From: Falsirhodobacter xinxiangensis
GTDB taxonomy: Bacteria > Pseudomonadota > Alphaproteobacteria > Rhodobacterales > Rhodobacteraceae
Length of the DNA: 64,000 nucleotides
Assembly (NCBI RefSeq): GCF_004959935.1
Contig: NZ_SMYN01000007.1
Location: 1 to 64,000 of the forward strand
Direction: 5' to 3'
Shown here piece after piece: positions 5,653 through 20,845 of the stretch (position 1 is its first letter; the number at the start of each line of letters is the position of its first letter). The position numbers and the translations under genes were made by a program. The notes beneath the pieces were generated by a model. That model did not search any database and was not told the DNA's origin. It was given only the letters and a program-made list of their open reading frames with translations.

Positions 5653-6434
5653 TACGGCTCCTGTTTGATGATTCCGGTTTCCACCGCCACGCGGCGATAT
5701 CCCGCCCCGGCGATGAACCCGCCGTCGATCAGGAAATCCTCGCCGGTGACGAATTTCGACGCGTCCGAGGCAAGATACAGCACCATCTGCGCCACCTCGT
5801 CCGGGGTGCCGCTGCGGCCCGCCGGGGTCATGCCGATCATGGGTGCCAGATGCGGCGAATCGGCGTTCAGCCCGGTCACGATCAGTCCGGGACAGATGGC
5901 GTTCACGCGGATGCCTGCGCCCGCATATTCCATCGCCGCGCTGCGCGTCAGGCCGCGAAGACCCCATTTGCTGGCGGTATAGGCCGGATCGTAATGCCCC
6001 GAAAACGCGCTGTTGGACGAGATGTTGATGATGCTGCCCCCGTTCGTCATCAGCGGCGCACAGGTGCGGATGCCAAGGAACGCGCCCGTCAGGTTCACGT
6101 CGATCACCCGCCGCCACGCATCGGGCGATGTGTCCGCGATCAGGCTGCGGTTGATGATTCCCGCGTTGTTGACCACAATGTCCAGACGACCCTCTACCCG
6201 CGCCGCAGCCTCGGCCCAGCCCGCCTCGGAGGTGACGTCCAGCTTCAGGAATTGCTGGCCAAGCTCCTCGGCCAGCGCCGCGCCTTCGTCCAGCACGTCG
6301 CAGATCAGCACGCGCGCCCCGCATTCGACCAGCAGCCGCACCTCGGCCTCGCCCTGCCCGCGCGCGCCGCCCGTGACGATGGCGGTGCGGCCCGACAGGT
6401 CGGTCATCGCCGCGCGAAGGGCCGCCGCGCTCAT
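5652..6434 (-). CDS. Short-chain dehydrogenase/reductase (SDR), classical type
   Basis: A 260-residue NAD(P)-dependent oxidoreductase. The Rossmann glycine motif is TGGARGQGEAE, the structural motif is NNAG, and the catalytic Ser-Tyr-Lys is visible as ISSNSAFSGHYDPAYTASK. The family C-terminal form FVTGEDFLIDGG follows. The start at 6434 is chosen because it overlaps the FAH-family stop by ATGA. It lies between a FAH-family protein and thioesterases, in an operon that probably handles products of the ring-attacking enzyme encoded divergently at 7825. The substrate is not readable from sequence. Confidence 0.9.
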   Translation of the reverse strand: MSAAALRAAMTDLSGRTAIVTGGARGQGEAEVRLLVECGARVLICDVLDEGAALAEELGQQFLKLDVTSEAGWAEAAARVEGRLDIVVNNAGIINRSLIADTSPDAWRRVIDVNLTGAFLGIRTCAPLMTNGGSIINISSNSAFSGHYDPAYTASKWGLRGLTRSAAMEYAGAGIRVNAICPGLIVTGLNADSPHLAPMIGMTPAGRSGTPDEVAQMVLYLASDASKFVTGEDFLIDGGFIAGAGYRRVAVETGIIKQEP

Positions 6435-7273
6435 GCCTGCACCGTCAGCTGCGACTGTTCGCCCAACCCCGCGGCACCAAGCGTCATCCACTGCCCCGCG
6501 CGCAGAAAGACCGGCGGTTTCATCCCCAGCCCCACGCCCGGCGGCGTTCCGGTCGCGATCACGTCGCCCGGCTCCAACGTCATGAACTGCGACAGATAGC
6601 TGACGACATGCGCGACGCCGAAGATCATCGTGCGGGTGTTGCCCGTCTGGCGGCGCACGCCATCGACATCCAGCCACAAATCGATGTTCTGCGGATCGGG
6701 AATTTCGTCGCGCGTTACCAGCCAAGGGCCAAGGGGGCCGAAGGTGTCGTGGCTTTTCCCCTTGGTCCATTGCCCGCCGCGTTCCGATTGGAAGGCGCGT
6801 TCGGACACGTCGTTGGCAAGGCAGTAACCCGCGACATGGTCCAGCGCGTCGGCTTCGGACACGTATTTGGCGCGCTTGCCGATGACGATGGCCAGCTCCA
6901 CCTCCCAATCGGCCTTTTCGGACCCGCGCGGGATTTCCACATCGTCGTTCGGCCCGCAGATGGCGGAAACGGCCTTGGCGAAGACGACGGGTTCGGGCGG
7001 CGGCTCTTTCCCGGTTTCCTTGGCGTGATCGGCATAGTTCAGGCCGATGCACAGGTATTTGCCCACCCGGCCGACGCAGGCGCCGATGCGTGCGCCCTCG
7101 TCCACCAGCGGCAGGGATGCGGGGTCGATCGCCGCCAGCTTCGCCAGCCCTTCGGCGGACAGGGCCGCGCCCGCGATGTCGTCCACATGCGCCGACAGAT
7201 CGCGCAGGCGGCCATCGGCATCCACCACTGCGGGGCGCTCGGCCCCCTTCTCTCCGTAACGTGCAAGCTTCAT
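6431..7273 (-). CDS. Fumarylacetoacetate hydrolase (FAH) family protein
   Basis: A 280-residue protein with the FAH catalytic domain from about residue 70 on. The metal-binding acidic residues are in WEVELAIVIGKRA, and the substrate loop and C-terminal glycine-rich motif GDVIATGTPPGVGLGMKPP are intact. The N-terminal 65 residues are the short cap common in acylpyruvase and ureidoglycolate-lyase-like members. Family members cleave or hydrate beta-diketo acids, a reaction that fits ring-opened products of aromatic degradation. It is second in the operon after the cupin. Confidence 0.9.
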   Translation of the reverse strand: MKLARYGEKGAERPAVVDADGRLRDLSAHVDDIAGAALSAEGLAKLAAIDPASLPLVDEGARIGACVGRVGKYLCIGLNYADHAKETGKEPPPEPVVFAKAVSAICGPNDDVEIPRGSEKADWEVELAIVIGKRAKYVSEADALDHVAGYCLANDVSERAFQSERGGQWTKGKSHDTFGPLGPWLVTRDEIPDPQNIDLWLDVDGVRRQTGNTRTMIFGVAHVVSYLSQFMTLEPGDVIATGTPPGVGLGMKPPVFLRAGQWMTLGAAGLGEQSQLTVQA

Positions 7274-7285: not shown

Positions 7286-7708
7286 TTATGCGCGGCGATA
7301 GCCGATCAGCGAATCGTCCGGCACATCCTCGAAATTGACGACCAGGTTGTCCGGCGTGCGGCAGGTCAGCCAGACCAGTTCCTCGGTCGTGCTCATGTTC
7401 ACCTCCACATGCGGCATCATGGGTGGCACGAACACGAAGTCGCCTTCGTAAAGATCGACGAATTCGCGATACCCCTCGCCGAAATAGATGCGCCCGTGAC
7501 CCTTGAGCACATAGCCCCCCGTTTCGCATTCCGCGTGGTGGTGCGGGGGCGAACGGTGGCCGGGCTCGTTGGAAACCTTGCCGAACCAGATCTTCGTTGC
7601 GGGCGTGTTCTGCGGGCTGACGCCGCTGCGCCGCACGGCATCGCCCGACTGGGCCGTCTCGCCCCCAAGGGCGCTGCCACGGGTCACGACCGGAACTGCA
7701 TGGGACAT
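7286..7708 (-). CDS. Small single-domain cupin protein
   Basis: A 140-residue cupin. Metal-type residues appear in PPHHHAECETGGYVLKG (His-His-His plus Glu) and in the second motif GDFVFVPPMMPHVEV. The start at 7708 follows a strong GAGGAGAG ribosome site. It heads the minus-strand operon and is divergent from the ring hydroxylase at 7825. It could be a small dioxygenase or an isomerase acting on a pathway intermediate, or only a sensor; the length is too short for a bicupin gentisate dioxygenase. Confidence 0.85.
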   Translation of the reverse strand: MSHAVPVVTRGSALGGETAQSGDAVRRSGVSPQNTPATKIWFGKVSNEPGHRSPPHHHAECETGGYVLKGHGRIYFGEGYREFVDLYEGDFVFVPPMMPHVEVNMSTTEELVWLTCRTPDNLVVNFEDVPDDSLIGYRRA

Positions 7709-7824: not shown

Positions 7825-10080
7825 ATGAAAATCGCAGTCTTGGGCGCCGGCCCAACGGGTCTTTATTTCGCGATCAGCATGATGCTGCGCGACAAGGCCC
7901 ACGAGATCACCATCTATGAACGCAACGCGCCGGATGACACCTTCGGCTGGGGCGTCGTGCTGTCGGACGAAACGCTGGGCGCGCTGGCCACGAACGATCC
8001 GGCATCCGCCGCGACGATCCGCGAAAGCTTCGCCTATTGGGACGATATCCGCGTCGTCCGCGGGGCCGAGGAGATCACGACCTCGGGCCATGGGTTCTGC
8101 GGCATCGGGCGGATGCGCCTTCTGCTGCTGCTTCAGGCGCGCGCAAGGGAACTGGGCGTCACGATCCATTTCAAGCACAACGTGGACGACGCCGAATTCG
8201 ACCGCATCCGCGCCGAGAACGATATCGTCGTCGCGGCCGACGGTCTGAACAGCCGCACCCGAACACGGTTCGAGGATGCCTTCCGCCCCGAGGTGGACAT
8301 GCGCGCCAACAAGTTCGTCTGGCTGGGCACGAAACAGAAGTTCGACGACGCCTTCACCTTCATCTTCGAGCAGACCGAACACGGCTGGATCTGGGCGCAT
8401 GCCTATCAGTTCGACGCGGATACGGCGACCTTCATCGCCGAATGCAGCCAGCAGACCTATGACGGCTTCGGCTTCGGCGCCATGTCGCAGCAGGAAAGCA
8501 TCGCCGTGCTGGAACGGGTCTTCGCCGCGCATCTGGGCGGCCATGCGCTAATGACCAACGCGAACCACATCCGCGGTTCGGCATGGATCAACTTCCCCCG
8601 CGTCATCTGCGAGAAATGGCACCACGAGAATGTTGTCCTGCTGGGCGACGCCTCGGCCACCGCGCATTTTTCGATCGGGTCGGGCACCAAGCTGGGGCTG
8701 GAAAGCGCCATCGCGCTGGCCAACCACCTGCATGCGGGCGGCGATCTTGCGGCCTATCAGGAAGAGCGGAAGCTGGACGTGATCCGTCTGCAATCCGCCG
8801 CCCGCAATTCGACCGAATGGTTCGAGGATGTGGAGCGGTATCTTGGCCTGGACATGGTGCAGTTCAACTACTCCCTGCTGACCCGCAGCCAGCGCATCAG
8901 CCACGAGAACCTGCGCAAGCGCGACCCGAAATGGCTGGCCGAGGCCGAGGCGTGGTTCCAGCGCAGCGCCGGCGGCAACGGCGACCGCCGCCCGATGTTC
9001 GCCCCCTATGCCCTGCGCGACATGCGGCTGAAGAACCGCGTCGTCGTGTCCCCCATGGCGCAATACAAGGCGGTGGACGGCAATCCGACCGACTGGCATT
9101 TCGTCCATTACGCCGAACGCGCCAAGGGCGGCGCGGGTCTGGTCTTCACCGAAATGCTCTGCGTGTCCCCCGAGGGGCGGATCACCCCCGGCTGCCCCTG
9201 CATCGGTCCGGCGCAGGAACGCGCATGGGCGCGGCTGACCGCCTTCGTCCATACCGAGACGGACGCCAGGATCTGCGCTCAGATCGGCCATGCGGGGCGC
9301 AAGGGCGCGACGCGCGCGCCGTGGGACGGGATCGACCTGCCGATCGAGGATGGCTGGCCGCTGATCTCGGCCTCGGCGCTGCCCTATCTGCCGCAAAGCC
9401 AGACGCCACGGGCGATGGACCGCGCCGACATGGACTCGGTAAAGGCGCAGTTCGTCGCGGCAGTGCAATCGGCGGACCGCGCGGGCTTCGACATGATCGA
9501 AATGCACGCGGCGCACGGATATCTGCTCGCCTCGTTCCTGTCGCCCATCACCAACCGGCGCGATGACGCCTATGGCGGCAGTCTGGAAAACCGCCTGCGC
9601 TACCCGCTGGAGGTGTTCCACGCGATGCGCGACGCGTGGCCCGCAGGCAAGCCGATGACGGTCCGCATCTCGGCCCATGACTGGATCGAGGACGGGGTGA
9701 CCCCCGAGGACGCCGTGCTGATCGCCCAAGCCTTCCACGCGGCGGGCGCGGATGCGATCAACGTGTCCTCCGGGCAGACGGACAAGGCGGAGCGCCCCGT
9801 CTATGGCCGCATGTTCCAGGCCCCGTTCAGCGATCGCATCCGCAACGGGCTAGGCGTGCCGACCATGGTGGCGGGCAATATCTATGAACCCGACCACGTG
9901 AATTCGATCCTGATGGCGGGGCGTGCGGATCTGGTGCTGCTGGCCCGCCCGCATCTGGCCGACCCCTACTGGACGCTGCACGCGGCGGTGGCCTTGGGCG
10001 ATACCGAACAGGCATGGCCCGCCCCCTATGAAGGGGGCCGCCGTCAGGCGAACACGCTGGCCGAACGGGCGCGGGCATGA
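7825..10080 (+). CDS. Fused flavin monooxygenase / old-yellow-enzyme: 2-aminobenzoyl-CoA monooxygenase/reductase or salicylyl-CoA 5-hydroxylase type
   Basis: A 751-residue fusion. Residues 1 to about 385 form an FAD aromatic hydroxylase ([12 protein letters not shown] near residue 6, and the second FAD motif [14 protein letters not shown] near residue 273). Residues about 390-745 form an old-yellow-enzyme domain ([30 protein letters not shown], and the [14 protein letters not shown] barrel motif). This domain order is that of 2-aminobenzoyl-CoA monooxygenase/reductase, which hydroxylates and partly reduces anthraniloyl-CoA, and of proteins annotated as salicylyl-CoA 5-hydroxylase fusions. Neighbours favour anthraniloyl-CoA: a RidA deaminase follows, and an isatin-hydrolase-like gene lies beyond. 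It heads a five-gene operon with ATGA overlaps. Confidence 0.88.
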
Positions 10081-10781
10081 GGCGCGCGCTGGTCACGGGC
10101 GGCGGCAGCGGCGCGGGGGCGGTCATCGCCCGCGCGCTGGCCGATGGCGGCGTCGCGGTCACGGTCTGCGGGCGCAGGCCCATCGACGCACCGGGCATGA
10201 CCTCGGCCATCTGCGACGTGACGGACGAGGCGCAGATCGCGGCGCTGTTCGCGGATCACGGGCCGTTCGACATCGTGATCGCCAATGCCGGCGCATCGGA
10301 ATCCGCGCCCTTCGTCCGGACCGACAAAGCCGCGCTGGACCGGATGCTGGCCGTGAACGTGACCGGTACCTTCCTGACCTTCCGCGAGGCCGCCCGCACC
10401 ATGGGCGAAGGCGGACGGATGATCGCCATCGCCTCGACCGCCGGGCTGAAGGGGTATGCCTATGTCGCGCCCTATGCGGCGGCGAAACATGCTGTCGTGG
10501 GCATGGTGAAATCCGTGGCGCTGGAGCTGGCGGGGCGCGGCATCACCGTGAACGCCGTCTGCCCCGGCTTCATGGAAACCGAGATGACCGCCGCATCCAT
10601 CGCCCGCATCATGGAAAAGACCGGCCGGACCGAGGCAGAGGCCCGCGCCGCGCTGACGACCAACCCGATGGGAAAGCTGGTCGATCCGGACGATGTGGCG
10701 CAGGCGGTGCTCTGGCTCTGCGGGCCGGGATCGGGCATGGTGACGGGCCAGACCATCGCCATCTCCGGGGGGGAAACATGA
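10077..10781 (+). CDS. SDR family 3-hydroxyacyl-CoA dehydrogenase-like oxidoreductase
   Basis: A 234-residue SDR with [21 protein letters not shown], the catalytic triad in [21 protein letters not shown], and [13 protein letters not shown] at the end. It overlaps both neighbours by ATGA. In an operon behind an aminobenzoyl-CoA monooxygenase/reductase, a dehydrogenase of cyclic 3-hydroxyacyl-CoA intermediates is the natural assignment, because that pathway finishes by beta-oxidation-like steps. The substrate is inferred from context. Confidence 0.87.
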
Positions 10782-11212
10782 CCGACGCCTCGCGTCAAAG
10801 GCTGCGCCTTTGGCTGAACATGCTGAAGGCCACGCGGCATGTGGAGCTTGAGGTGCGCGAACGCCTGCGGGTCGATTTCGACACGACGCTGCCGCGCTTC
10901 GACGTGCTGGCCGTGCTGTCGCGCCACCCCGAGGGGCTGCGCCTGTCCGACCTGTCGAAAGAGCTGATGGTGTCCAACGGCAACGTGACCGTCGTGGTGG
11001 ACCGGCTGGCCGAGGACGCTCTGGTCGAACGCCTGCCCGTCCCGGGCGACCGGCGCGCGTGGCAGGTGCGGCTGACCCCGGCGGGCGAGGGCGCGATCCG
11101 GGCCATGACCGACGCGCATCGCGACTGGATCGACCGGCTGTTCGGCGGGCTGGACGATGCGCAGATCGCCGCCGCCATCGACACGCTTTCGGCGATACGG
11201 AAACCCGCATGA
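10778..11212 (+). CDS. MarR family transcriptional regulator
   Basis: A 144-residue winged-helix repressor. The core is FDVLAVLSRHPEGLRLSDLSKELMVSNGNVTVVVDRL, followed by the wing VPGDRRAWQVRLTPAG. It lies inside the oxygenase operon, between the SDR and a thioesterase, overlapping both by ATGA. MarR proteins of aromatic pathways commonly sense the free acid or the CoA thioester. Candidate sites are the dyad at 7744-7766 and the inverted repeat at 12147-12166. Confidence 0.92.
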   Translation: MTDASRQRLRLWLNMLKATRHVELEVRERLRVDFDTTLPRFDVLAVLSRHPEGLRLSDLSKELMVSNGNVTVVVDRLAEDALVERLPVPGDRRAWQVRLTPAGEGAIRAMTDAHRDWIDRLFGGLDDAQIAAAIDTLSAIRKPA

Positions 11213-11622
11213 CCTTCCGCCAGACCCGCATCGTCGAATTCCAGCACTGCGACCCGGCCGGGATCGTCTTCTATCCCCGCTATTTCGAGATGGTGTCCTC
11301 GGTGATCGAGCGGTTCTTCACCGACGCGCTGGGCTTCGGGTTCGGCGCGAACATGAAGCGCGGCATCGGCGTGCCCACGGCGCGGATCGCGGTGGATTTC
11401 CACGCGCCGTCGCGGCTTGAAGACAGCCTCGACTTCGCGCTGGTGGTGACCCGCATCGGCAACAGTTCCGCCGATTACCGCCTGATCTGCACCTGCCACC
11501 AGCCACGGTTCACCGCCACGGGAACGCTGGTGCATTACGACTTCACCGCCGGGCGTTCCGCGCCCTGGCCCGACGATCTTCGCGCGGGTCTTGCCCGCCA
11601 CCTTGCCACGGAGCCCGCATGA
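11209..11622 (+). CDS. 4HBT-type acyl-CoA thioesterase
   Basis: A 137-residue hotdog protein. The active-site loop FQHCDPAGIVFYPRYFEMV has the Asp of the 4-hydroxybenzoyl-CoA thioesterase group. The tail PWPDDLRAGLARHL closely matches the thioesterase at 5242-5652 on the other strand. It is coupled by ATGA overlap to the MarR gene before and the RidA gene after. A likely role is releasing a CoA product or rescuing CoA from dead-end aryl-CoA esters. Confidence 0.88.
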   Translation: MTFRQTRIVEFQHCDPAGIVFYPRYFEMVSSVIERFFTDALGFGFGANMKRGIGVPTARIAVDFHAPSRLEDSLDFALVVTRIGNSSADYRLICTCHQPRFTATGTLVHYDFTAGRSAPWPDDLRAGLARHLATEPA

Positions 11623-12029
11623 CCCCCCACCAATTCCTGAACCCCGAAGGCTGGAAACCGGCCAAGGGATACGCCAACGGCATGCTTGCCGCCGAGGGCC
11701 GCGTCGTCGCGCTGGGCGGGCTGATCGGCTGGAACGAGCAGCAGGAGTTCGAACATGCCGACCTTGCGGGCCAGTTCGGGCAGACGCTGGAAAACATCGT
11801 GGCCGTGCTGGCCGAGGCGGGCGCGGGGCCGGAACATCTGGTGCGCCTGACATGGTATATCACCGACCGCGACGAATACCTGTCCAGCCTGAAGGAGATC
11901 GGCGCGCATTACCGCCGGGTCATCGGGCGTCATTTCCCCGCGATGGCGGTGGTGCAGGTCGTGTCCCTGATGGAGGCCGAAGCCAAGGTGGAGATCGAGG
12001 CGACGGCGGTTCTGCCCATGGCGAAATGA
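11619..12029 (+). CDS. RidA/YjgF/UK114 family enamine/imine deaminase
   Basis: A 136-residue RidA-family protein with LGGLIGWNEQQEFEHADLAGQFGQTLENI, then HLVRLTWYITDRDEY and the C-terminal segment AMAVVQVVSLMEAEAKVEIEATAV. RidA proteins hydrolyse enamine/imine intermediates. The product of 2-aminobenzoyl-CoA monooxygenase/reductase is an enamine (2-amino-cyclohexene-carboxyl-CoA type), so a dedicated deaminase here is chemically sensible. It is the last gene of the operon, overlapping the thioesterase by ATGA. Confidence 0.9.
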   Translation: MTPHQFLNPEGWKPAKGYANGMLAAEGRVVALGGLIGWNEQQEFEHADLAGQFGQTLENIVAVLAEAGAGPEHLVRLTWYITDRDEYLSSLKEIGAHYRRVIGRHFPAMAVVQVVSLMEAEAKVEIEATAVLPMAK

Positions 12030-12041
12030 ATCGCTTGATTG

Positions 12042-12051
12042 TTTGATCAAA
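12042..12051. promoter_or_regulatory. TTTGATCAAA operator candidate, distal copy
   Basis: A perfect palindrome 13 bp after the RidA stop and 149 bp before the isatin-hydrolase start. It is the first of two identical sites whose centres are 58 bp apart. Confidence 0.6.
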
Positions 12052-12099
12052 TGCAAGGATGCTGTTTCAATCGGCATCCGACGCGCCATCTGCCCGGCA

Positions 12100-12109
12100 T
12101 TTGATCAAA
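12100..12109. promoter_or_regulatory. TTTGATCAAA operator candidate, proximal copy
   Basis: The second perfect copy, 91 bp before the isatin-hydrolase start codon. Paired sites in one gap suggest cooperative binding or a short DNA loop. A weaker half-like sequence (GTTGATCGG) follows at about 12132. Confidence 0.6.
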
Positions 12110-12146
12110 CCCCGGCACAAAGCGGCACATCGGTTGATCGGCCCTG

Positions 12147-12166
12147 AAATATGCGTTTGCATATTT
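12147..12166. promoter_or_regulatory. Perfect inverted repeat before the isatin-hydrolase gene, MarR-type operator candidate
   Basis: Arms AAATATGC (12147-12154) and GCATATTT (12159-12166) flank the spacer GTTT. This is the size and AT-rich character usual for MarR operators. It lies 34 bp upstream of the ATG at 12201, where it could cover the promoter. The MarR gene at 12983 is in the same operon, and a second is at 10778. It could also fold as a small hairpin in the leader RNA. Confidence 0.55.
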
Positions 12167-12200
12167 TTAAACAAGAAACATCAACGGGAGAGATTCACGA

Positions 12201-12983
12201 ATGCCAGCCACACTGACCCAGCTTGCCACCGCGCTTTCGTCCGGCCAGATCCGCGTCGTCGATTGCACCGCCACCTTGGGCCCGAAGACACCGCTGCTGA
12301 AGCTGCCCCCCGAAATCGCCGACGACACCCCCCCGATCGAGATCCACCAGATTTCGAAATACGGCGATCGCGGCCCGTTCTGGGCCTGGAACTGGCTGAA
12401 GCTGGGCGAACATTCCGGCACGCATTTCGACGCGCCGCACCATTGGATCACGGGCCGCGATTATCCCGACGGCGCGACCGACACGATCGACGCGCAGAAC
12501 TTCGTCGCTCCCGCCAACGTCATCGACTGTTCCGCGCAGGCCGCCGAGAACCCCGATTTCCTGCTGACCGCCGAAGGCGTCAAGGCGTGGGAGGCCGAAC
12601 ATGGCGAGATCGGCGCGGGCGAATGGGTCTTGATGCGGACCGACTGGTGCAAACGCAACCATGACGAGGCGCTGTATCTGAACGCGGACGAGACCGGGCC
12701 GCACACCCCCGGCCCATCCGCCGACTGCGTCCGCTATCTGATGGAAAAGAAGGTGCTGGGCTGGGGCACCGAATGCATCGGCACCGATGCCGGCGCAGCC
12801 GGCGGGTTCGAGCCGCCCTTCCCCGCGCATAACCTGCTGCACGCGAACAACCGCTATGGCCTTGCCTCGCTGGTCAACCTGTCGGAACTGCCGCCCAAGG
12901 GTGCGATCCTGATCGCCGCGCCCCTGAAGATCGAAGCCGGCACCGGCAGCCCGATCCGCGCGCTGGCGCTGGTTCCCGCCTGA
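12201..12983 (+). CDS. Cyclase-family metal hydrolase, isatin-hydrolase-like (alternatively kynurenine formamidase)
   Basis: A 260-residue member of the cyclase family (PF04199). The metal motif HxGTHxDxPxH is complete: H71, H75, D77, P79 and H81. Isatin hydrolases are about this long and have an aromatic-rich segment just before the motif, here FWAWNW; bacterial kynurenine formamidases of the family are nearer 210 residues. Isatin hydrolase opens the lactam of isatin to isatinate. The next genes encode a 2-oxoacid:ferredoxin-oxidoreductase-like enzyme that could use isatinate, and no kynureninase is visible. Two TTTGATCAAA sites and a MarR-like inverted repeat precede it. The substrate choice is inference. 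Confidence 0.8.
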   Translation: MPATLTQLATALSSGQIRVVDCTATLGPKTPLLKLPPEIADDTPPIEIHQISKYGDRGPFWAWNWLKLGEHSGTHFDAPHHWITGRDYPDGATDTIDAQNFVAPANVIDCSAQAAENPDFLLTAEGVKAWEAEHGEIGAGEWVLMRTDWCKRNHDEALYLNADETGPHTPGPSADCVRYLMEKKVLGWGTECIGTDAGAAGGFEPPFPAHNLLHANNRYGLASLVNLSELPPKGAILIAAPLKIEAGTGSPIRALALVPA

Positions 12984-13408
12984 TGCGCGACTTCGCCCCC
13001 TATCTGATGAACCGCATCATGGCCCGCTATAACGCGGGGGTCGCCGATGCCTTGGCGGCCGAGGGGGTGAGCGTGCCACAGATGCGGACCCTTGCCGTGC
13101 TGGTGCAGCAGGGTCCGCGCACGATCAACGAATTGTCGGTGCTGACAGTCATCAAGCAATCCACCCTGTCGCGCACCCTTGACGCGATGGAGGCGGCGGG
13201 CCTCGTGCGGCGCGAGCCGTGCGAGACCGACAGCCGCGTGCGCCACATCCACCTGACGGATGCCGGCCGCGCCGCCCACGACCGCGCCTGGCCCGCGATG
13301 CAGCGCGCCGAATCCGCGCTGTTCGCCGCCATCCCCGAAGATGAACGCGCGGCCTTCACCCGAACCCTGACGCGGATACTCGGCAGCATCCGCCACCACG
13401 ATTTCTGA
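12983..13408 (+). CDS. MarR family transcriptional regulator
   Basis: A 141-residue MarR protein with SVPQMRTLAVLVQQGPRTINELSVLTVIKQSTLSRTLDAMEAAGL and the wing CETDSRVRHIHLTDAG. Its ATG overlaps the hydrolase stop by one base (TGATG), so the regulator is co-expressed with the pathway. It probably binds the inverted repeat at 12147-12166 and responds to a pathway intermediate. Confidence 0.92.
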   Translation: MRDFAPYLMNRIMARYNAGVADALAAEGVSVPQMRTLAVLVQQGPRTINELSVLTVIKQSTLSRTLDAMEAAGLVRREPCETDSRVRHIHLTDAGRAAHDRAWPAMQRAESALFAAIPEDERAAFTRTLTRILGSIRHHDF

Positions 13409-13425
13409 CGCCAGAGGAGAGCCCC

Positions 13426-15573
13426 ATGGCAGAACGGTCATTCAAGAAGGAAGTCGAGCAGCTGCGCATGGGCGCGGGCGGCACCTTCCGCGGCGAGGGT
13501 ATCCTTGCCGTCACCAAGGCATTGCTGGAAAACGGCGTCGGCTATGTCGGCGGCTATCAGGGATCGCCGATCAGCCACCTGATGGACGTGTTCTCGGACG
13601 CGCAGGACCTGCTCGGCGAATACGGCGTCCATTTCGAAAACTCGGCATCCGAGGCGACGGCGGCGGCGATGCTGGCGGCGTCGGTGAACTATCCCATCCG
13701 CGGGGCGGTCGCGTTCAAATCGACCGTGGGCACGAACGTGGCGTCCGACGCTTTGGCGAACCTCGCCTCGGGCGGGGTGACGGGCGGCGCGCTGGTGATC
13801 CTGGGCGAGGATTACGGCGAGGGCTCGTCCATCATGCAGGAACGCAGCCATGCCTTCGCGATGAAAAGCCAGATGTGGCTCTTGGACCCGCGCCCGAACC
13901 TGACATCCATCGTTGCGGCGGTGGGGCATGGGTTCCGCCTGTCCGAGGCGTCGAACACCCCCGTGATGATGCAGATGCGGGTGAAATCCTGCCACGTCCA
14001 CGGCCATTTCACCGCCGCCGACAACCAGCGCCCGCAGATGACCGTGTCCGAGGCGCTGGAGAACCCGAAACGCGATCTGGGCCGCATCGTCCTGCCCCCC
14101 GCCGTCTTCGTGCACGAGGCCGAGAAGGTCGAGAAACGCTGGCCCAATGCCGTGCGCTATGTGCTTGAAAACAACGTCAACGAATTCTTCGGCAACGACG
14201 CGTCGAAGATCGGCCTGATCGTGCAGGGCGGCACCTATAACGGCGTGATCCGCGCGCTGAACCGTCTGGGGCTGGCCGACATCTATGGCGACACGGACAT
14301 CCATATCCTGTGCCTGAACGCGGTCTATCCGCTGTGCGACGGGCAGATCCTCGACTTCTGCGACGGCAAGGATGCGGTGCTGGTGGTCGAGGAAGGGCAG
14401 CCGAACTTCATCGAGCAAGCCATCGGCCACAGGCTGTATCAGGCAGGCCGCAAGACGGTGCTGATGGGCAAGGGGCCGCTGCCGATGGCGGGGGAATACA
14501 CCGGCCAGAAGCTGGTGGACGGCATCGCGGCGTTTCTGCGCGACCACGCGCCGAACATGCTGCTGCCCGCCAAATCCAAGGCGAACGAGCCGGAACAGAC
14601 CGAGATCCCGAACCTGGCCGAGGTTCTTCCGGGCCGCCCGCCGGGTTTCTGCACCGGCTGCCCCGAACGGCCCATCTTCGCCGCGACGAAACTGGTGCAG
14701 CAGGAGTTGGGCGAGCATCACATCGCCTCCGACATCGGCTGCCATCTGTTTTCGATCATGCCGCCCTTCGACATCGGATCGACCACGATGGGCTATGGCC
14801 TTGGCCCTGCATCCGCATCCGCGCTGCAAAACCGCGACAAGGACGGCAAGCGGTCGATCAGCTTTGTCGGCGATGGCGGGTTCTGGCATAACGGGCTGAC
14901 GTCATCCATCGGCAACGCCTCGTTCAACAAGCATGACGGCGTGATCGTGATCGTGGACAACCACTATGCCGCCGCCACGGGGGGGCAGGATGTGTTGTCG
15001 TCCCGCGCCAAGAACAAGAGCCGCAAGACGAACAACCCGATCAGCGACGCCGTGCGCGGAATGGGCGTGAAATGGGTGCGCCAGATCGACCGCACCTATG
15101 ACGTGACCAAAATGCGCGACACGCTGAAGGAAGCACTGACCAGCAAGGAAGAAGGGCCGAAGGTCATCGTCGCATCCTCGGAATGTATGCTGAACCGCCA
15201 GCGCCGCGAAAAGCCGCTGCTGGCCAAGGCGACCAAGGACGGCAAGCGCACCGTCAAACCCCGTTTCGGCGTGGACGAGGACATCTGCACCGGCGATCAC
15301 GCCTGCATGCGGCTGTCGGGCTGCCCATCCCTGTCGGTCAAGGACACGGGCGATCCGCTGCGCGACGACCCGGTGGCGCATATCGACCAGACCTGCGTCG
15401 GCTGCGGCAACTGTGGCGAGGTGGCGGATGCCGCCGTCCTCTGCCCCAGCTTCTGGCAGGCCGAGGTCGTGTCGAACCCCACCCCCGCCGAGACGCGCCG
15501 CGCCTCTCGCGCCGCCCGGATCATGGGCTGGCTGCAAGCCCGCCGCGACGCCAAACGTCTTACATTCGCCTGA
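13426..15573 (+). CDS. Indolepyruvate ferredoxin oxidoreductase alpha-like subunit (TPP-dependent 2-oxoacid oxidoreductase)
   Basis: A 715-residue IorA-type subunit. The N-terminal pyrimidine-binding domain (about 10-190) has GGYQGSPISHLMD. The TPP domain (about 405-590) has GFCTGCPERPIF, DIGCHLFSIMPPFDIG and the GDGGFWHNG...DNHYAAATGGQD cofactor motif. The C-terminal ferredoxin domain has two cysteine clusters: one with C-x5-C-x5-CP spacing and one with CxxCxxCx8CP. Family members convert aryl 2-oxoacids plus CoA to aryl-CoA, CO2 and reduced carrier. Here isatinate (2-aminophenylglyoxylate) giving anthraniloyl-CoA would fit the neighbours. The spacing in the first cluster is unusual and may mean one cluster is lost or altered. 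Confidence 0.88.
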   Translation: MAERSFKKEVEQLRMGAGGTFRGEGILAVTKALLENGVGYVGGYQGSPISHLMDVFSDAQDLLGEYGVHFENSASEATAAAMLAASVNYPIRGAVAFKSTVGTNVASDALANLASGGVTGGALVILGEDYGEGSSIMQERSHAFAMKSQMWLLDPRPNLTSIVAAVGHGFRLSEASNTPVMMQMRVKSCHVHGHFTAADNQRPQMTVSEALENPKRDLGRIVLPPAVFVHEAEKVEKRWPNAVRYVLENNVNEFFGNDASKIGLIVQGGTYNGVIRALNRLGLADIYGDTDIHILCLNAVYPLCDGQILDFCDGKDAVLVVEEGQPNFIEQAIGHRLYQAGRKTVLMGKGPLPMAGEYTGQKLVDGIAAFLRDHAPNMLLPAKSKANEPEQTEIPNLAEVLPGRPPGFCTGCPERPIFAATKLVQQELGEHHIASDIGCHLFSIMPPFDIGSTTMGYGLGPASASALQNRDKDGKRSISFVGDGGFWHNGLTSSIGNASFNKHDGVIVIVDNHYAAATGGQDVLSSRAKNKSRKTNNPISDAVRGMGVKWVRQIDRTYDVTKMRDTLKEALTSKEEGPKVIVASSECMLNRQRREKPLLAKATKDGKRTVKPRFGVDEDICTGDHACMRLSGCPSLSVKDTGDPLRDDPVAHIDQTCVGCGNCGEVADAAVLCPSFWQAEVVSNPTPAETRRASRAARIMGWLQARRDAKRLTFA

Positions 15574-15582
15574 AGGCCCGCC

Positions 15583-17109
15583 ATGAACATGCAAGCCCCC
15601 GTCATCGCCCGCCGTTCCCCCGGACCGCAGGGCGAACGCATCATCACGCTGGCCGCTCTGGCCGTCGGCGGTCAGGGCGGCGGCGTCCTGACCAACTGGA
15701 TCATCGACGTGGCCGAGGCGAACGGCTATCACGCGCAGGCCACGTCCGTCGCGGGCGTCGCCCAGCGCACCGGCGCCACCGTCTATTATGTCGAGATGTG
15801 CCGCGACACGGGCCGCACCCCGGTCTTCGCGCTGTCCCCGTCCGAAGGCGATGTGGACATCATGATCGCGTCGGAACTGATGGAGGCGGGGCGCGCGGTG
15901 ATGCGCGGGTTCGTGACCCCGGGCCGCACGACGCTGATCGCATCCACCCACCGCATCGCCGCCGTGTCGGAAAAGATCGCCCCCGGCGACGGGCGCGCCG
16001 ATGGGGCCAAGGTGCTGGAGGCCATGGGCATCGCCGCCGATCACGTGGTCGCCTTCGACATGGAAACGCTGGCGACCAAGGCCGGGTCGGTCATCTCGGC
16101 CAGCCTGTTCGGTGCGCTGGCCGGGTCCGGCGCGCTGCCCTTCCCGCGCGACAGCTACGAGGACATCATCCGCAAATCCGGCAAGGGGGTCGAGGCGTCG
16201 CTGCGTGCCTTCGGTCTGGCCTTCGATGTGGCCAAGGGCGATGCCGAGGCGCCGAAGGTCGAAGCCGTGAAGCCCCCCGCCCGCACCCTGACCGTGCCCG
16301 ATGCGCTGCGTGCGGATTGGGCGGCGCTGGAGGCCCGGCTGGCCGCCCTGCCCGAATCCGCGCGGGACATGGCGGGTCTGGGGCTGAAGAAGGTGGCCGA
16401 TTATCAGGACCTTGCCTACGGCCGGCAATATCTGGACATGGTCGAACGGGCCGCGGCGCGCGATCCGGCGCTGGCGGAACCGGCGGCGAAATATGCCGCG
16501 AACGCGCTGTGCTATGACGATATCCTGCGCGTGGCCGACCTGAAGACCCGCGCCGCCCGCCTGTCCCGCGTCCGCGCCGAGGCGCGCGTGAAGGAGGGGC
16601 AGGTCCTGCACGTCACCGAATATTTCCACCCCCGGTTCGAGGAGTTCACGACCACCCTGCCCGCCCGCCTTGGCGCATGGCTTCAGCGCAGCAAACGCGC
16701 CGAGGCGTTCTATGCCCGCCATCTGGACAAGGGCCGCCGCATCCGCACCGACAGCATCGGCGGCTTCGGTCTGCTCTGGATCGTCGGTGCGCTGCGCCCG
16801 TGGCGGCGCAGCCTTCTGCGGCATCGGTCCGAGATGGCGCATGTGAACGCATGGTTCGACGCGGCGCTGGCACAGCCCGACCCCGCGCTGGCGGCCGAGG
16901 TTCTGGCGAACCGCCGGCTCATCAAGGGCTATTCCGACACCCATGCGCGGGGGCTGTCCAAGTTCGACCGGGTGATGTCGGCCCTGCCGATGCTGCAGGG
17001 GCGGCCCGACGCGGCGGACTGGATGCGCCGCCTGCGCACCGCCGCGCTGGCCGACGAAAAGGGCACGGCGCTGGACGGCGCGCTGAAGACGGTGGCCAGC
17101 TTCGCCTGA
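15583..17109 (+). CDS. Indolepyruvate oxidoreductase beta-like subunit, long form
   Basis: A 508-residue protein. The first about 200 residues are the gamma-type domain of 2-oxoacid oxidoreductases (LAVGGQGGGVLTNWIIDVAE, and VAGVAQRTGATVYYVEM). Archaeal IorB proteins end about there; this one has an extra C-terminal domain of about 270 residues, as in many proteobacterial homologues. It starts 9 bp after the alpha subunit and surely forms a complex with it. The stop codon is embedded in a perfect hairpin that also contains the stop of the convergent GntR gene. Confidence 0.88.
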   Translation: MNMQAPVIARRSPGPQGERIITLAALAVGGQGGGVLTNWIIDVAEANGYHAQATSVAGVAQRTGATVYYVEMCRDTGRTPVFALSPSEGDVDIMIASELMEAGRAVMRGFVTPGRTTLIASTHRIAAVSEKIAPGDGRADGAKVLEAMGIAADHVVAFDMETLATKAGSVISASLFGALAGSGALPFPRDSYEDIIRKSGKGVEASLRAFGLAFDVAKGDAEAPKVEAVKPPARTLTVPDALRADWAALEARLAALPESARDMAGLGLKKVADYQDLAYGRQYLDMVERAAARDPALAEPAAKYAANALCYDDILRVADLKTRAARLSRVRAEARVKEGQVLHVTEYFHPRFEEFTTTLPARLGAWLQRSKRAEAFYARHLDKGRRIRTDSIGGFGLLWIVGALRPWRRSLLRHRSEMAHVNAWFDAALAQPDPALAAEVLANRRLIKGYSDTHARGLSKFDRVMSALPMLQGRPDAADWMRRLRTAALADEKGTALDGALKTVASFA

Positions 17110-17125: not shown

Positions 17126-17824
17126 CGAAGGTTCGCCCATGAACTGATGCAGCAGATCCTGCGTCGCGGTGATGTCCGCTTCGACCGCGCTGCGAAAGGC
17201 CGGGGCATCCCCCTTGCGCAGCGCGTCCAGCATCTCCTCGTGATGCAGGGTGAAGCCGCTGCGGTAATCGGTCTTCAGCAGGTCGCCCATCTGGTCCGAC
17301 AGGAACCGAACATAGGGGCCGGACCGCAGCCACAGATTCTCGATCTGGCTCATCAGAACGGGGCTTTGCGCGGCGGCATAGATGTGGAAGTGGAACTGCC
17401 GGTTCGCTGCGGCCATCGCCACGGTGTCGCCGCTGATGCCGGTGTCGCGGTGCAGATCGATCAGTGATTGCAGCGTCGCAAGATCCGCCTTGGACAGGTT
17501 CGGCAGCGCCAGATCGGCCGTCGCGCATTCGATGATGACGCGGGCGCGGCTGATGTCGTCCAGCTCCTCCTGCGACAGATCGGGAACGAAGGCGGTGCCC
17601 GAGGCGGCGATCCGCAGCGCGTTTTCCGCCGCCAACCGCCGCAGCGCCTCGCGCACGGGCATGTGCGAGGTCTGGAACCGTTCGGACAGCGACGCGATGG
17701 TGAACGTCTCGCGCGCCTCGAACGCGCCGGACATCAGGGCATCGCGCAATTGTTCATAGACCTGATCCTGCACCGTCCGGCGCGAGGCGACGGGTTTCAG
17801 TTGTTTTTGCGGGGAAACGGCCAT
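17120..17824 (-). CDS. GntR family transcriptional regulator (FadR/FCD subgroup)
   Basis: A 234-residue regulator. The N-terminal winged helix is QVYEQLRDALMSGAFEARETFTIASLSERFQTSHMPVREALRRL, and the C-terminal FCD all-helical effector domain has metal-site-like residues in NRQFHFHIY and LHHEEML. A TTTGATCAAA copy sits 45 bp before its start. Together with four other copies in front of importer and catabolic genes, this makes the protein the best candidate for controlling that local regulon and itself. Confidence 0.92.
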   Translation of the reverse strand: MAVSPQKQLKPVASRRTVQDQVYEQLRDALMSGAFEARETFTIASLSERFQTSHMPVREALRRLAAENALRIAASGTAFVPDLSQEELDDISRARVIIECATADLALPNLSKADLATLQSLIDLHRDTGISGDTVAMAAANRQFHFHIYAAAQSPVLMSQIENLWLRSGPYVRFLSDQMGDLLKTDYRSGFTLHHEEMLDALRKGDAPAFRSAVEADITATQDLLHQFMGEPSA

Positions 17825-17868
17825 GACAGCTCCGATGGTTGCCCTCCGGCCTTAGCGCAGGGAGGCGG

Positions 17869-17878
17869 TTTGATCAAA
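17869..17878. promoter_or_regulatory. TTTGATCAAA operator candidate in front of the GntR gene
   Basis: A perfect copy in the 70-bp gap between the Lrp-type and GntR genes, both read leftward. The position fits autoregulation of the GntR gene. Confidence 0.62.
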
Positions 17879-17894
17879 TACATAACTTCCGACC

Positions 17895-18359
17895 CTAGGG
17901 ACGCAGCGCCTTGGCCGCGCCGGCAAGCGAGTGCCGCGCCTTGATCACCCGCGTCGCCACGACGGTTTCGGTCCGCGCCACGCCGGGCATCCGCGCGATC
18001 TGCTGGCGCAGCAGACGGTCCAGCGCGTTCACGTCGGCGGCAAGGATGTGCAGCAGGTAATCCCCGGTCCCCGTCGTCGCGTGGCAGCGCCAGATGGCGG
18101 CATGGGCGCGCACCGCCGCTTCGAACCGTTCCGAGGCATCGAAATGCAGCGTCACCTGCACGAAGGCCTCAATCCCGAAGCCCAGCGCGGCCGGGTCCAG
18201 CAGCGCGGCATATCCCGTCACCACGCCCGCCTCCTCCAGCGCCTTGATGCGTTTCCACACCGGCGTCTTCGACATGCCCTGCCCCTCGGCCAGATCGGCG
18301 AAGGATTGACGCGCATCCGCCTCCAGCGCCGAGAGCAGGTTCAGGTCCACATTATCCAT
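17895..18359 (-). CDS. Lrp/AsnC family transcriptional regulator, KynR-like by position
   Basis: A 154-residue protein. The N-terminal helix-turn-helix is DLNLLSALEADARQSFADLAEGQGMSKTPVWKRIKALEEAGV and the C-terminal RAM domain has GDYLLHILAADVNALDRLL. I chose the start at 18359, which follows a GGGGGAA site and gives the usual MDNVDLN beginning; a start at 18389 is possible. It is divergent from the tryptophan-dioxygenase-like gene, the same arrangement as kynR with kyn genes in other proteobacteria, and probably senses an aromatic amino acid or kynurenine-like ligand. Confidence 0.88.
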   Translation of the reverse strand: MDNVDLNLLSALEADARQSFADLAEGQGMSKTPVWKRIKALEEAGVVTGYAALLDPAALGFGIEAFVQVTLHFDASERFEAAVRAHAAIWRCHATTGTGDYLLHILAADVNALDRLLRQQIARMPGVARTETVVATRVIKARHSLAGAAKALRP

Positions 18360-18383
18360 CGTTCCCCCGAAATCCGGTATCTG

Positions 18384-18451
18384 TTCCATTCGTTTCCGAA
18401 AACACTGCCACCCGCAGGATGACAGAACAATGTTTTCCGCGATACGTGGAA
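18384..18451. promoter_or_regulatory. Imperfect long dyad between the Lrp-type and TDO-like genes
   Basis: About 20-bp arms at 18384-18403 and 18432-18451 share TTCCA...GAAAAC against GTTTTC...TGGAA, with mismatches in the middle. Lrp/AsnC regulators often bind such spaced imperfect repeats. The dyad covers the divergent promoter region and the start of the Lrp-type leader. Confidence 0.4.
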
Positions 18452-18486
18452 TGATCGGTCAACCAAGCACAGCGCAAGGATGACAG

Positions 18487-19236
18487 ATGACCCGCGACGA
18501 ATGGCACCGCCTGATCGAAACGCCGAAGATGCTGGACTATGGCGTCTATCTTGCCGCGGACCGCCTTCTGGACTGCCAGAAGCCGCTGGCGGACATGTGC
18601 AACGGCGACGAATTGCAGTTCCAGATCGTCCATCAGGTCGAGGAGCTTTGGATGAAGCTCATCGCCTATACGCTGGTGGATGTGCGGGATTTCATGGCCA
18701 TCGGCGCGTCGCACCGCGTCGTGACGCTGATGGGCCGCGCCCACCGCCTGATGCGCCTGATGACCCAGCAGCTGGACGTGCTGGAGACGATGTCCCCCCG
18801 CGAATACCAGGAGGTGCGCAAGCAGCTTGGCAACGGGTCGGGGCAGGAATCGCCGGGGTTTCAGGTGCTGCTGCGGATGCCGCCCGACCTGTGGGAGACG
18901 TTCCGCGCCGTCTATCTGGACGGGCGCGGGCTGACGGTCGCGGACATCTATGACGCGCGTTACGATCACGGCGAAAGCTATGCCGTGGCCGAGGCGCTGA
19001 TCGAATATGACGAGCTGTTCCAGAAGTTCCGCGCCATGCACGTCTATCTGATCCACCGTTCGATCGGGATGGGGTCGCGCTCGCTCAAGGGGCGGCCGGT
19101 GGCGATCCTCGAAGCCGGGGCACGCCATCGGTTCTTTCCCGAATTGTGGGATGTCCGCTGCGACATGACCGACGCGTGGGGCGCAAGCTATGGCGTGGTG
19201 CGCGCGGCCATCCACAAAGGGGCTCCCCAACCGTGA
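18487..19236 (+). CDS. Tryptophan 2,3-dioxygenase-like heme protein, divergent subgroup
   Basis: A 249-residue all-helical TDO-family protein. The distal His is kept (H49 in VHQVEELWMK), and the heme-ligand helix is recognisable with H185 in RAMHVYLIHRSIG. However, the segment that in ordinary TDOs carries GTGGS, which helps hold the substrate ammonium group, is replaced by SRSLKGRP. The carboxylate-binding region reads GNGSGQESPGFQ in place of the usual SGFQS-type motif. The substrate may therefore be an indole without the amino-acid side chain, or a modified tryptophan. It lies divergent from an Lrp-type regulator and near isatin and anthraniloyl-CoA genes. Confidence 0.8.
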   Translation: MTRDEWHRLIETPKMLDYGVYLAADRLLDCQKPLADMCNGDELQFQIVHQVEELWMKLIAYTLVDVRDFMAIGASHRVVTLMGRAHRLMRLMTQQLDVLETMSPREYQEVRKQLGNGSGQESPGFQVLLRMPPDLWETFRAVYLDGRGLTVADIYDARYDHGESYAVAEALIEYDELFQKFRAMHVYLIHRSIGMGSRSLKGRPVAILEAGARHRFFPELWDVRCDMTDAWGASYGVVRAAIHKGAPQP

Positions 19237-19293
19237 AGTTCGCCAGATCCAGCACCGAACCCGGGCGAATGCCACTTGAAATCTTTGCTTGTG

Positions 19294-19303: not shown

Positions 19304-19346
19304 CGATCAATATATTCGGAATCGTTTGCGGGCAAGAGGATATGAA

Positions 19347-19670
19347 ATGGCCGCCCTGCCCAACAGCATCTGGACGCGCACCGCCCGCAACAGCTTCGTG
19401 GCGGGCCGGGTGCCGCCCGCGCGCGTGGATGTCGCGGTCGTGAGCGGCAGCTACATCCCCTTCCCCGAAACCGAGGAGGAGGCCGCCCTGACCGGCGATC
19501 CGCGCGTGCCGGTTCTGACCCGCTATGCCACGGCGGACGCCTATACCGCCGCCATCCGCACCGCGTCCGAGCAGCTGGTCCACGACCGCTTCCTGCTGCC
19601 CGAAGACGTCGGCGCCGCCATCGCCATGGCCGCCCGCTGGGGCCGCGTGAACCATTCCCATTCGCTTTGA
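19347..19670 (+). CDS. Small protein resembling the C-terminal end of alpha/beta-hydrolase-domain proteins (Abhydrolase_10 type)
   Basis: A 107-residue protein. The part after about residue 27 (SGSYIPFPETEEEAALTGDPRVPVLTRYATADAYTAAI, then LVHDRFLLPEDV) looks like the last about 80 residues of the large alpha/beta hydrolase-domain family I remember as PF20091. No nucleophile elbow or catalytic domain is present. The start at 19347 follows a GAGGA site and the gene has its own promoter with an operator copy, so it is expressed as a small protein or is the tail of a gene lost by deletion. It precedes the aminotransferase by 17 bp. The family match is from memory and needs a profile search. Confidence 0.6.
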   Translation: MAALPNSIWTRTARNSFVAGRVPPARVDVAVVSGSYIPFPETEEEAALTGDPRVPVLTRYATADAYTAAIRTASEQLVHDRFLLPEDVGAAIAMAARWGRVNHSHSL

Positions 19671-19687
19671 ACCTCAGGAACACTCCC

Positions 19688-20845
19688 ATGAAACATCTGG
19701 CCAAACGGATCACCGGAACCTCGAAGAAATCCTTCGGTATGTATGGACGCGCCGCCGCGATGACGGGGCGCGACCTGATCCATATGGAACTGGGCCGCCC
19801 CCATGCCGACACCCCCGATCACATCAAGGAGGCGACCATCGCCGCCATCCGCGCTGGCAAGGTCCATTATTCCAACCTGCCGGGCGAATTGCATCTGCGG
19901 CAGGCGCTGAAGGAGAAGCTGGCCCGCCAGAACGCGATGGAGGTGACGACCGACCAGATCATCGTGACCAACGGGCTGACCCATGCCTCATACGCCGCGA
20001 TCATGGCCTTCATCGACGATGGCGACGAGGCGATCCTGCTGGAGCCGTATTACCCCCAGCATATCGGCAAGATCGAACTGGCGGGCGGCAAGGTCGTCAT
20101 GGCCCCCTTGGGCGAGGATTTCCGCATCGACCCCGCGCTGATCGCACCGAAGATCACCGCGCGCACCAAGATGATCGTGCTGATCAACCCCTGCAACCCG
20201 ACGGGCCGCGTCTATAGCCGCGAGGAATTGCAGGGGCTGGCCGATCTGGCGATCAAGCACGACCTGCTGGTCATCGCGGACGAGGTGTATAAGGACATCC
20301 TGTTCGACGGCGCGAAACACATCTCCATCGCGACGCTGCCGGGGATGGCGGAACGCACGGTCAGCATGTTCGCCTTCACCAAAAGCTATGCGATGGATGG
20401 CTGGCGGATCGGATACATGACCGCGCCGGACTGGGCGATCCCGGCCCTGCTGAAGATCACCGCCAATGACGTCACGCACGTGAACACCTTCATCCAGGAA
20501 GGCGCGCTGGCGGCGATCACGGGCGATCCCGCCGTGCTGGCGGGCCTGATCGCCGAGGACCGCGAAAAGCGCGACATCGTGGTGACGCGGCTGAACCAGA
20601 TGGCGGGCGTGACCTGTGCCTGGCCCGAGGGCACGATCTATGCCTTCCCGTCGATCAAGGGCACGGGGCTGGGATCGCAGATCGTGGCCGAACGGCTGCT
20701 GGATGAAACCGGCGTGGTGGTGGAGGCGGGCAGCTTCTATGGCGCGGCGGGCGAAGGGCATCTGCGCGTCTGCTTCGGATCGCTGTCCACCCCGCATATC
20801 ACCGAGGCGATGGACCGGATGCAGCGTTTCTTCGGCGCGCTGTAG
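19688..20845 (+). CDS. PLP-dependent class I/II aminotransferase
   Basis: A 385-residue aspartate-aminotransferase-fold enzyme. Visible motifs are NGLTHASYAAIMAF, INPCNPTGRVYSREEL, the DEVYKDILFDG acidic motif, and the PLP-lysine region FAFTKSYAMDGWRIGYM. An AGGAA site precedes the ATG. It is co-transcribed with the small hydrolase-like gene under a TTTGATCAAA site. In this context it may transaminate tryptophan, kynurenine or another aromatic amino acid. The substrate cannot be fixed from sequence. Confidence 0.9.
   Translation: MKHLAKRITGTSKKSFGMYGRAAAMTGRDLIHMELGRPHADTPDHIKEATIAAIRAGKVHYSNLPGELHLRQALKEKLARQNAMEVTTDQIIVTNGLTHASYAAIMAFIDDGDEAILLEPYYPQHIGKIELAGGKVVMAPLGEDFRIDPALIAPKITARTKMIVLINPCNPTGRVYSREELQGLADLAIKHDLLVIADEVYKDILFDGAKHISIATLPGMAERTVSMFAFTKSYAMDGWRIGYMTAPDWAIPALLKITANDVTHVNTFIQEGALAAITGDPAVLAGLIAEDREKRDIVVTRLNQMAGVTCAWPEGTIYAFPSIKGTGLGSQIVAERLLDETGVVVEAGSFYGAAGEGHLRVCFGSLSTPHITEAMDRMQRFFGAL

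Follow-up and report, generated by a model that had tools for sequence, protein, structure and literature searches.

Isatin hydrolase and an IorAB-type oxidoreductase beside a 2-aminobenzoyl-CoA operon of Falsirhodobacter xinxiangensis: a probable ligase-free route from isatin to anthraniloyl-CoA

Background

The pathway in which 2-aminobenzoate (anthranilate) is activated by a CoA ligase and handed to 2-aminobenzoyl-CoA monooxygenase/reductase (ABM) has been laid out, and in the anthranilate operon of Azoarcus evansii the ligase gene is followed by that of ABM (PMC4539516; here and below, what is said of cited papers refers to the parts of their text available to us). We present an analysis of a gene cluster from Falsirhodobacter xinxiangensis, located in a stretch of 64,000 nucleotides (contig NZ_SMYN01000007.1 of assembly GCF_004959935.1, positions 1 to 64,000; hereafter the window), where an ABM operon is accompanied not by a ligase gene but by genes for a predicted isatin hydrolase and for IorA and IorB (together IorAB), which resemble the two subunits of indolepyruvate ferredoxin oxidoreductase (IOR). 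From gene content and from comparison with related genomes we consider it quite probable that this cluster leads from isatin through isatinate to anthraniloyl-CoA by the action of the hydrolase and IorAB, with no ligase involved.

The anthranilate operon of Arthrobacter pAL1 likewise carries a ligase gene, and it has ABM, RidA, FAH, cupin and thioesterase-domain proteins in common with the window. ARUE_113p00220 has been demonstrated to be an anthranilate-CoA ligase (PMC3534580), and the AMP-binding gene of pAL1 was taken to be this one because it adjoins the ABM fusion.

A second related system is the auxin-degradation (iad) locus of Variovorax, Bradyrhizobium and Achromobacter, which combines, as the window does, a cyclase-family hydrolase (IadI) with IorAB homologues named IadA and IadB (PMC9613470, PMC12633357). 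The latter two have been termed exclusive markers of iad-like operons. The iad locus differs in having the IadCDE oxygenase, the IadF ligase, IadG and IadH; no homologues of these turned up in the window's first 27.5 kb. As published, the iad pathway stops at free anthranilate, and in the available text no reaction is assigned to IadA and IadB (PMC9613470, PMC12633357); the steps are attributed to genes of the iadC-K2 region, iadA and iadB being unnamed in the main text (PMC12633357). No CoA-acylating step from isatinate was found in the available parts of PMC6221969, PMC8383072 and PMC11630574, and a literature search covering few subscription journals returned no paper that connects either isatin hydrolase or isatinate to a step of this kind.

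Conversion of an arylglyoxylate to an aroyl-CoA, as proposed here for IorAB, is the reaction of phenylglyoxylate:acceptor oxidoreductase of Azoarcus/Aromatoleum. Oxoacid:ferredoxin oxidoreductases as a family yield CoA esters, and the phenylglyoxylate enzyme is built of several small subunits, unlike the two-subunit layout of IorA and the DUF6537-containing IorB. The IorAB reaction would be a variation on that chemistry; in Aromatoleum, phenylglyoxylate is turned into benzoyl-CoA (PMC9765128).

Results and discussion

The cluster and its predicted enzymes

The genes of the cluster are listed below (ThDP, thiamine diphosphate; Fe-S, iron-sulphur).

6431..7273, minus strand: FAH-family hydrolase (NF053535, 436.6 bits, under the cut-off of 500)
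7286..7708, minus strand: small cupin protein (70% identical to its counterpart in the pAL1 anthranilate operon)
7825..10080, plus strand: ABM, a 2-aminobenzoyl-CoA monooxygenase/reductase-type fusion (NF006101, 1197.9 bits against a cut-off of 1078)
10077..10781, plus strand: SDR oxidoreductase (4-bp overlap with ABM)
10778..11212, plus strand: MarR regulator 1 (Pfam MarR_2; start at the ATG at 10778)
11209..11622, plus strand: 4HBT acyl-CoA thioesterase (Pfam 4HBT_2)
11619..12029, plus strand: RidA family enamine/imine hydrolase (Pfam PF01042; close to ABM in many relatives)
12201..12983, plus strand: predicted isatin hydrolase, B type (260 residues; PDB 4j0n, E 1.6e-131; motifs given in the text)
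12983..13408, plus strand: MarR regulator 2 (Pfam MarR_2; located between the hydrolase and IorA genes)
13426..15573, plus strand: IorA-like ThDP/Fe-S large subunit (TIGR03336, 276 bits; TPP_enzyme_C)
15583..17109, plus strand: IorB-like POR-gamma + DUF6537 subunit (NF006179, 669 bits against a cut-off of 348; PF01558, PF20169)

Genes at 7825-12029 overlap or almost touch. After a gap of 171 bp the hydrolase, MarR regulator 2, IorA and IorB follow on the same strand (12201-17109), with IorB starting 9 bp past IorA, while the FAH and cupin genes (6431-7708) are oriented opposite to the ABM operon. A first-pass annotation, made from the DNA letters, had described the hydrolase as followed directly by both oxidoreductase subunits; the two subunits are indeed there, but a MarR gene that it did not mention intervenes. 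The ABM-type fusion operon which it placed just upstream was borne out, the product of 7825-10080 exceeding the NF006101 cut-off (1198 against 1078). A homologue of MarR regulator 2 holds the same position in many relatives, and both halves of the cluster are probably under the control of the two MarR proteins.

The hydrolase has isatin hydrolase B of Labrenzia aggregata (PDB 4j0n, 4m8d) as its best PDB match. Signatures described for isatin hydrolases are HxG[T/A]HxDxPxH, WxW/FxW and GLQC/GLAS (PMC6117287). The 260-residue length and the complete HxGTHxDxPxH motif reported in the first-pass annotation were found again, the latter as HSGTHFDAPHH at residue 71, and the pocket signatures appear as WAW at residue 61 and GLAS at residue 220. 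Length, metal motif, WxW and GLAS are the same as in the Labrenzia enzyme, and no substantial difference was seen. Kynurenine formamidase (KynB), with which grouping had been named as a possible objection, was considered and rejected: the protein matches crystallised isatin hydrolases and reaches only 27.4 bits with the arylformamidase model TIGR03035 (cut-off 223.05). Its predicted activity is that of an isatin hydrolase, which acts on isatin with Mn2+.

IorAB is assigned to the 2-oxoacid:ferredoxin oxidoreductase superfamily by PF02775, PF01558, a GDG motif at 482 and cysteines at 621-673. The first Fe-S cysteine cluster of IorA is unusually spaced, and a PDB profile search with IorA gave only weak matches to ThDP enzymes. 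Against the IOR equivalog models both subunits stay below the cut-off, IorA with 276 bits for TIGR03336 (650.9) and IorB with 45.3 bits for TIGR03334 (205.8). We propose them as candidate alpha and beta subunits of an isatinate oxidoreductase (CoA-acylating).

ABM is composed of a flavin adenine dinucleotide (FAD) monooxygenase domain and an old-yellow-enzyme domain and is 48% identical to the ABM of pAL1; because NF006101 is named salicylyl-CoA 5-hydroxylase/oxidoreductase, the model alone does not fix its substrate. The FAH protein is 41% identical to that of the pAL1 anthranilate operon, is kept in Alloyangia, and is probably part of the lower pathway from anthraniloyl-CoA, as is probably the cupin. 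The longest open reading frame (ORF) of the latter reaches 7855, whereas the ATG at 7708 gives 140 amino acids; 7286-7717 was used in the searches.

In the proposed route the hydrolase, judged by its homology to enzymes whose activity has been proven, would open the isatin ring to give isatinate, i.e. 2-aminophenylglyoxylate. IorAB would decarboxylate isatinate on ThDP, pass on two electrons via its Fe-S centres and transfer the 2-aminobenzoyl group to CoA, and the resulting anthraniloyl-CoA would enter the ABM operon (7825-12029) for hydroxylation and reduction. RidA may then hydrolyse an enamine or imine, and the ring may be opened by the SDR, FAH and cupin proteins. An ATP-dependent anthranilate-CoA ligase would not be required. 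That isatinate is oxidatively decarboxylated straight to anthraniloyl-CoA, as first suggested from this DNA alone, is well supported by comparative genomics, namely gene linkage and ligase displacement.

Linkage of isatin hydrolase and IorA genes

Genomes were scanned with IorA as the sole query, and the best 80 of 586 confirmed loci were kept (designations such as L116 or G065 are our own; L037 and L135 are one locus, counted once per set). An isatin hydrolase gene of at least 48% identity lay within 13 kb in 56 of the 80 loci, and was near in 49 of the 66 that had more than 8 kb of flank on both sides. ABM was near in 21 loci and occurred together with the hydrolase in 17. Where no hydrolase was near (24 of 80), 15 of the 23 searchable genomes hold one elsewhere (at least 52% identity). 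For plasmids, where 40 of 54 matching records were listed, the listed IorA is 0.5-2.7 kb from a hydrolase gene (at least 60% identity) in 26 of 27 records. The two genes are neighbours in many genera, and their linkage exceeds chance.

In a class-wide search of 385 genomes, IorA was found in 60 and the hydrolase (at least 50% identity) in 13, all of them among the 60. Six of the 13 (G065, G185, G187, G279, G281, G357) have an IorA of 54-55% identity on a separate contig from the hydrolase, and the two genes are on different contigs in G294. Neighbourhoods were inspected for 60 of the 66 IorA places (excluded were the window, three at 28-30%, G368 and G255:C34): the hydrolase was near in 5 of 17 with an IorA of at least 60% identity and in 0 of 43 below 60%. 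In a tree of 152 IorA proteins (FastTree, no bootstrap) these 43 hydrolase-free loci, the sister clade, are set apart from the hydrolase-linked loci by a fully supported split.

The 24 loci lacking a near hydrolase would fit a reading in which IorAB acts on some other 2-oxoacid, for example one from further down the ABM pathway, and is near the hydrolase only through a common regulon. Yet 36 SDR-partnered ABM operons have no near IorAB, so the lower pathway seems not to need it, and IorAB accompanies the hydrolase even where no ABM is found in the stretch examined (L031, L033, L192). We regard this explanation as very improbable.

Ligase genes beside ABM operons

The gene-neighbourhood survey recommended in the first-pass annotation was carried out and showed that IorAB occupies the usual place of the ligase beside ABM. 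The ligase query was 53.5% identical to the pAL1 AMP-binding protein, and 60 of 79 ABM places were taken, 23 of them without an SDR partner (54 of 85 loci have an SDR homologue no more than 8 kb from ABM). A typical ABM operon without IorAB consists of ABM, SDR, MarR, enoyl-CoA hydratase, acyl-CoA dehydrogenase and ligase, often followed by thioesterase and RidA, whereas the window's operon is without ligase, hydratase and dehydrogenase. When an SDR partner was required, 30 of 36 ABM operons lacking IorAB had a ligase homologue, compared with 2 of 17 that had IorAB (p 9e-7); the second count is too low because the filter removes L116 and L153, in which ABM lies at the locus edge. As some loci are clipped at their ends, whole-genome positions were used to score L116, L147, L153, L155, L161 and L171 as having a ligase near. 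L138 and L163 were excluded from this comparison (neither genome has a ligase of 330-400 bits), and L285 has an IorB of another clade.

At least six changes of the IorAB label are needed to account for its distribution on the ABM tree. The ligase alone is absent, with hydratase and dehydrogenase retained, from loci of Azospirillum, Sulfitobacter sabulilitoris, Mesorhizobium Root552 and Neorhizobium (L034, L122, L127, L154); each of these genomes has a ligase homologue elsewhere (33 kb off in L127).

The absence of a CoA ligase from the window, stated in the first-pass annotation, holds for the ORFs at 1-24000, and none of the genome's ten AMP-binding places is on the window's contig (C67). An aminobenzoate-CoA ligase gene in the same regulon had been named as a possible refutation; this genome as a whole (99.58% complete) yielded no member of the aminobenzoate/benzoate-CoA-ligase family. 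Its best TIGR02262 match, with 186.6 bits, is an acetate-CoA ligase, while the pAL1 ligase scores 338. The AMP-binding genes that were scanned (all but L178 and L186) comprise this acetate-CoA ligase, two PRK07529-type synthetases (one of which misses the cut-off), a dihydroxybenzoate adenylating enzyme and peptide synthetases; one more gene had no match. A kynureninase gene is present in the genome, but on contig C12. Among 26 IorAB-linked genomes, seven have nothing above 251 bits: the window's, L098, L099, L101, L103, G202 and G405.

These results bear on another reading, in which IorAB oxidises isatinate with transfer of the acyl group to water, and the free anthranilate is then activated by a ligase or CoA transferase that escaped recognition, or is broken down in some other way. 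It is improbable in our view, given that the enzyme family makes CoA esters, that the neighbouring operon begins at one and that no ligase candidate of the known family was found in the genome, even though the operon contains a 4HBT thioesterase and iad strains have been seen to end at anthranilate (PMC9613470, PMC12633357).

Locus contexts and the substrate of IorAB

Some loci combine the hydrolase and IorAB with an indole/styrene monooxygenase (L032, L102, L134), others with an iad-type Rieske oxygenase (L150, L161, L051, L194); in L126 and L137 only MarR, hydrolase and IorAB were found of the genes searched for. The iad assignment is based on the Rieske alpha subunit of L034 and its matches to PDB 9o71 and 7yls (E <1e-188), which we take to be IadD. 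Since isatin chemistry, and not indolepyruvate, is what the indole-monooxygenase and iad loci share, indolepyruvate is a poor candidate for the substrate.

The annotated product name suggests a true indolepyruvate (arylpyruvate) oxidoreductase, which would place IorAB in a route from tryptophan through indolepyruvate and indoleacetate to indole degradation, with isatin hydrolysis as a late step. An aminotransferase gene whose substrate is not evident (19667-20845) and the occurrence of IorAB in auxin-type loci could be read in this way. However, IadCDE uses indoleacetate itself (PMC12633357), both subunits miss the IOR cut-offs, and L032, L102, L126 and L137 show no indoleacetate-degrading oxygenase in the stretch examined. 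Two Rieske alpha subunits are encoded in the window's genome, on other contigs; they are only 27-32% identical to the iad type and were not counted as IadDE. Ligase displacement, too, would be left unexplained, and we hold this reading to be unlikely. No indole monooxygenase was found in the window's genome, in a search that had no positive control.

Two Deinococcus and one Rhodococcus plasmid have the hydrolase followed directly by a ThDP protein of one family (56-87% identity; L293:4995-7408, L290:8995-11414, L294:5315-7773), and no IorAB is annotated within the 5-9 kb shown. In Deinococcus psychrotolerans, a single operon, the pair lies inside an ABM operon that retains its ligase. The ThDP protein is a candidate isatinate decarboxylase: simple decarboxylation would give 2-aminobenzaldehyde and then anthranilate, for which a ligase would be needed, while oxidative decarboxylation to the CoA ester would need none.

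In the auxin pathway, C8H7NO3 and C7H7NO build up strongly only in iadC-K2 overexpressers (PMC12633357), and these formulas fit isatinate and 2-aminobenzaldehyde. Such a build-up would be expected if isatinate were formed without its IorAB, iadA and iadB probably being absent from those strains.

With less assurance than for the window itself, we lean towards a wider reading, that the IorAB-DUF6537 enzymes of this clade, IadA/IadB included, are isatinate:acceptor oxidoreductases (CoA-acylating) which provide a widespread ATP-free bypass and displaced the ligase several times, and that some lineages without IorAB (Deinococcus, Rhodococcus) use a distinct ThDP decarboxylase and then need the ligase. 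If true, this would give a reaction to an enzyme that carries, wrongly, the name indolepyruvate oxidoreductase in many Alphaproteobacteria and, in isolated cases seen here, in Betaproteobacteria and Actinobacteria, and a step to IadA/IadB, auxin-locus markers to which the available literature assigns none. The anthranilate of auxin-degrading strains would be partly a side product, with flux going into the CoA pathway and ATP being saved.

Evidence weighing against the ligase-free route

Several observations count against the route from isatinate directly to anthraniloyl-CoA. The main one comes from Variovorax, in which iadC-K2 fully restored anthranilic acid (PMC12633357); another path from isatinate to free anthranilate thus exists, for which IorAB is dispensable. 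The ligase comparison weakens when the SDR filter is dropped (33 of 59 without IorAB against 6 of 23 with IorAB, p 0.026), and the removal of L116 and L153 by this filter belongs here as well. The six loci scored above as having a ligase near carry it within about 13 kb of ABM (6 of 23 IorAB-linked ABM genes), and conversely 6 of the 36 SDR-containing ABM operons without IorAB are also without a ligase. In independent pairs on the ABM tree the predicted direction was usually seen in 4-5 of 6, a result that falls short of significance by itself (median p 0.125). A ligase-family gene is kept somewhere in 19 of the 26 IorAB-linked genomes.

Tsukamurella combines hydrolase, IorAB, ABM and an AMP-binding gene, and a PRK06155-type ligase adjoins IorAB in some iad loci of Bradyrhizobium, Shinella and Pukyongiella; IadF/PRK06155-type genes, being 27% identical to the pAL1 ligase, were not counted as anthranilate ligases, a choice made from sequence only. 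To these are added 12 class-wide IorA loci, out of 17 with an identity of at least 60%, that are without a near hydrolase, an iad cluster of Roseibium whose hydrolase has no IorAB within 9 kb of it, and the failure of IorA to reach the IOR equivalog cut-off, which can be held against the proposal as well. The proposed ligase-free route is not universal.

Other features of IorAB loci and of the window

In L032 the hydrolase and IorAB are flanked by two CrtI/CrtO-like FAD oxidoreductases (11922-13493 and 17712-19259). The first type, which possibly performs an oxidation step ahead of isatin, lies within 13 kb in 40 of the 80 IorA loci, but a search of the window's first 27.5 kb did not return it. 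A second IorAB layout (L193:6996-19000, L035, L287, L289) includes a thioesterase, a gentisate-dioxygenase-like cupin, an FAH hydrolase, a nitrilase and an Asp/Glu racemase, and perhaps represents a gentisate-like exit from anthraniloyl-CoA. An IorAB of another clade (57% identity) stands beside tryptophan dioxygenase (TDO) and kynureninase genes in L055 (8773-15480).

Downstream of the cluster, a short TDO-like gene (18487-19236) scores 122 bits against a cut-off of 391 and has a partial PDB match to TDO, its middle part being shorter. It is divergent from an AsnC/Lrp gene (17895-18389) and is followed by a fragment-like Abhydrolase_10 ORF (19326-19670). As a source of isatin it was rejected, with matches in only 3 of 146 IorA neighbour loci (L055, L058, L147) at 25-26% identity; its counterpart in L055 is the tryptophan dioxygenase, above the cut-off, that precedes kynureninase.

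The minus strand at 1-4837 encodes a dipeptide-type ABC transporter with a family 5 binding protein (PF00496; other parts assigned by ORF reading). ABC transporters also adjoin the IorAB loci of Alloyangia and Tritonibacter and are perhaps an uptake system. Also on the minus strand, at 22071-24484, a gene for a RuBisCO-like protein (PF00016, PF02788) adjoins that of a DUF1537-type kinase (SBD_N, NBD_C), a pair that resembles apiose/isoapionate cassettes.

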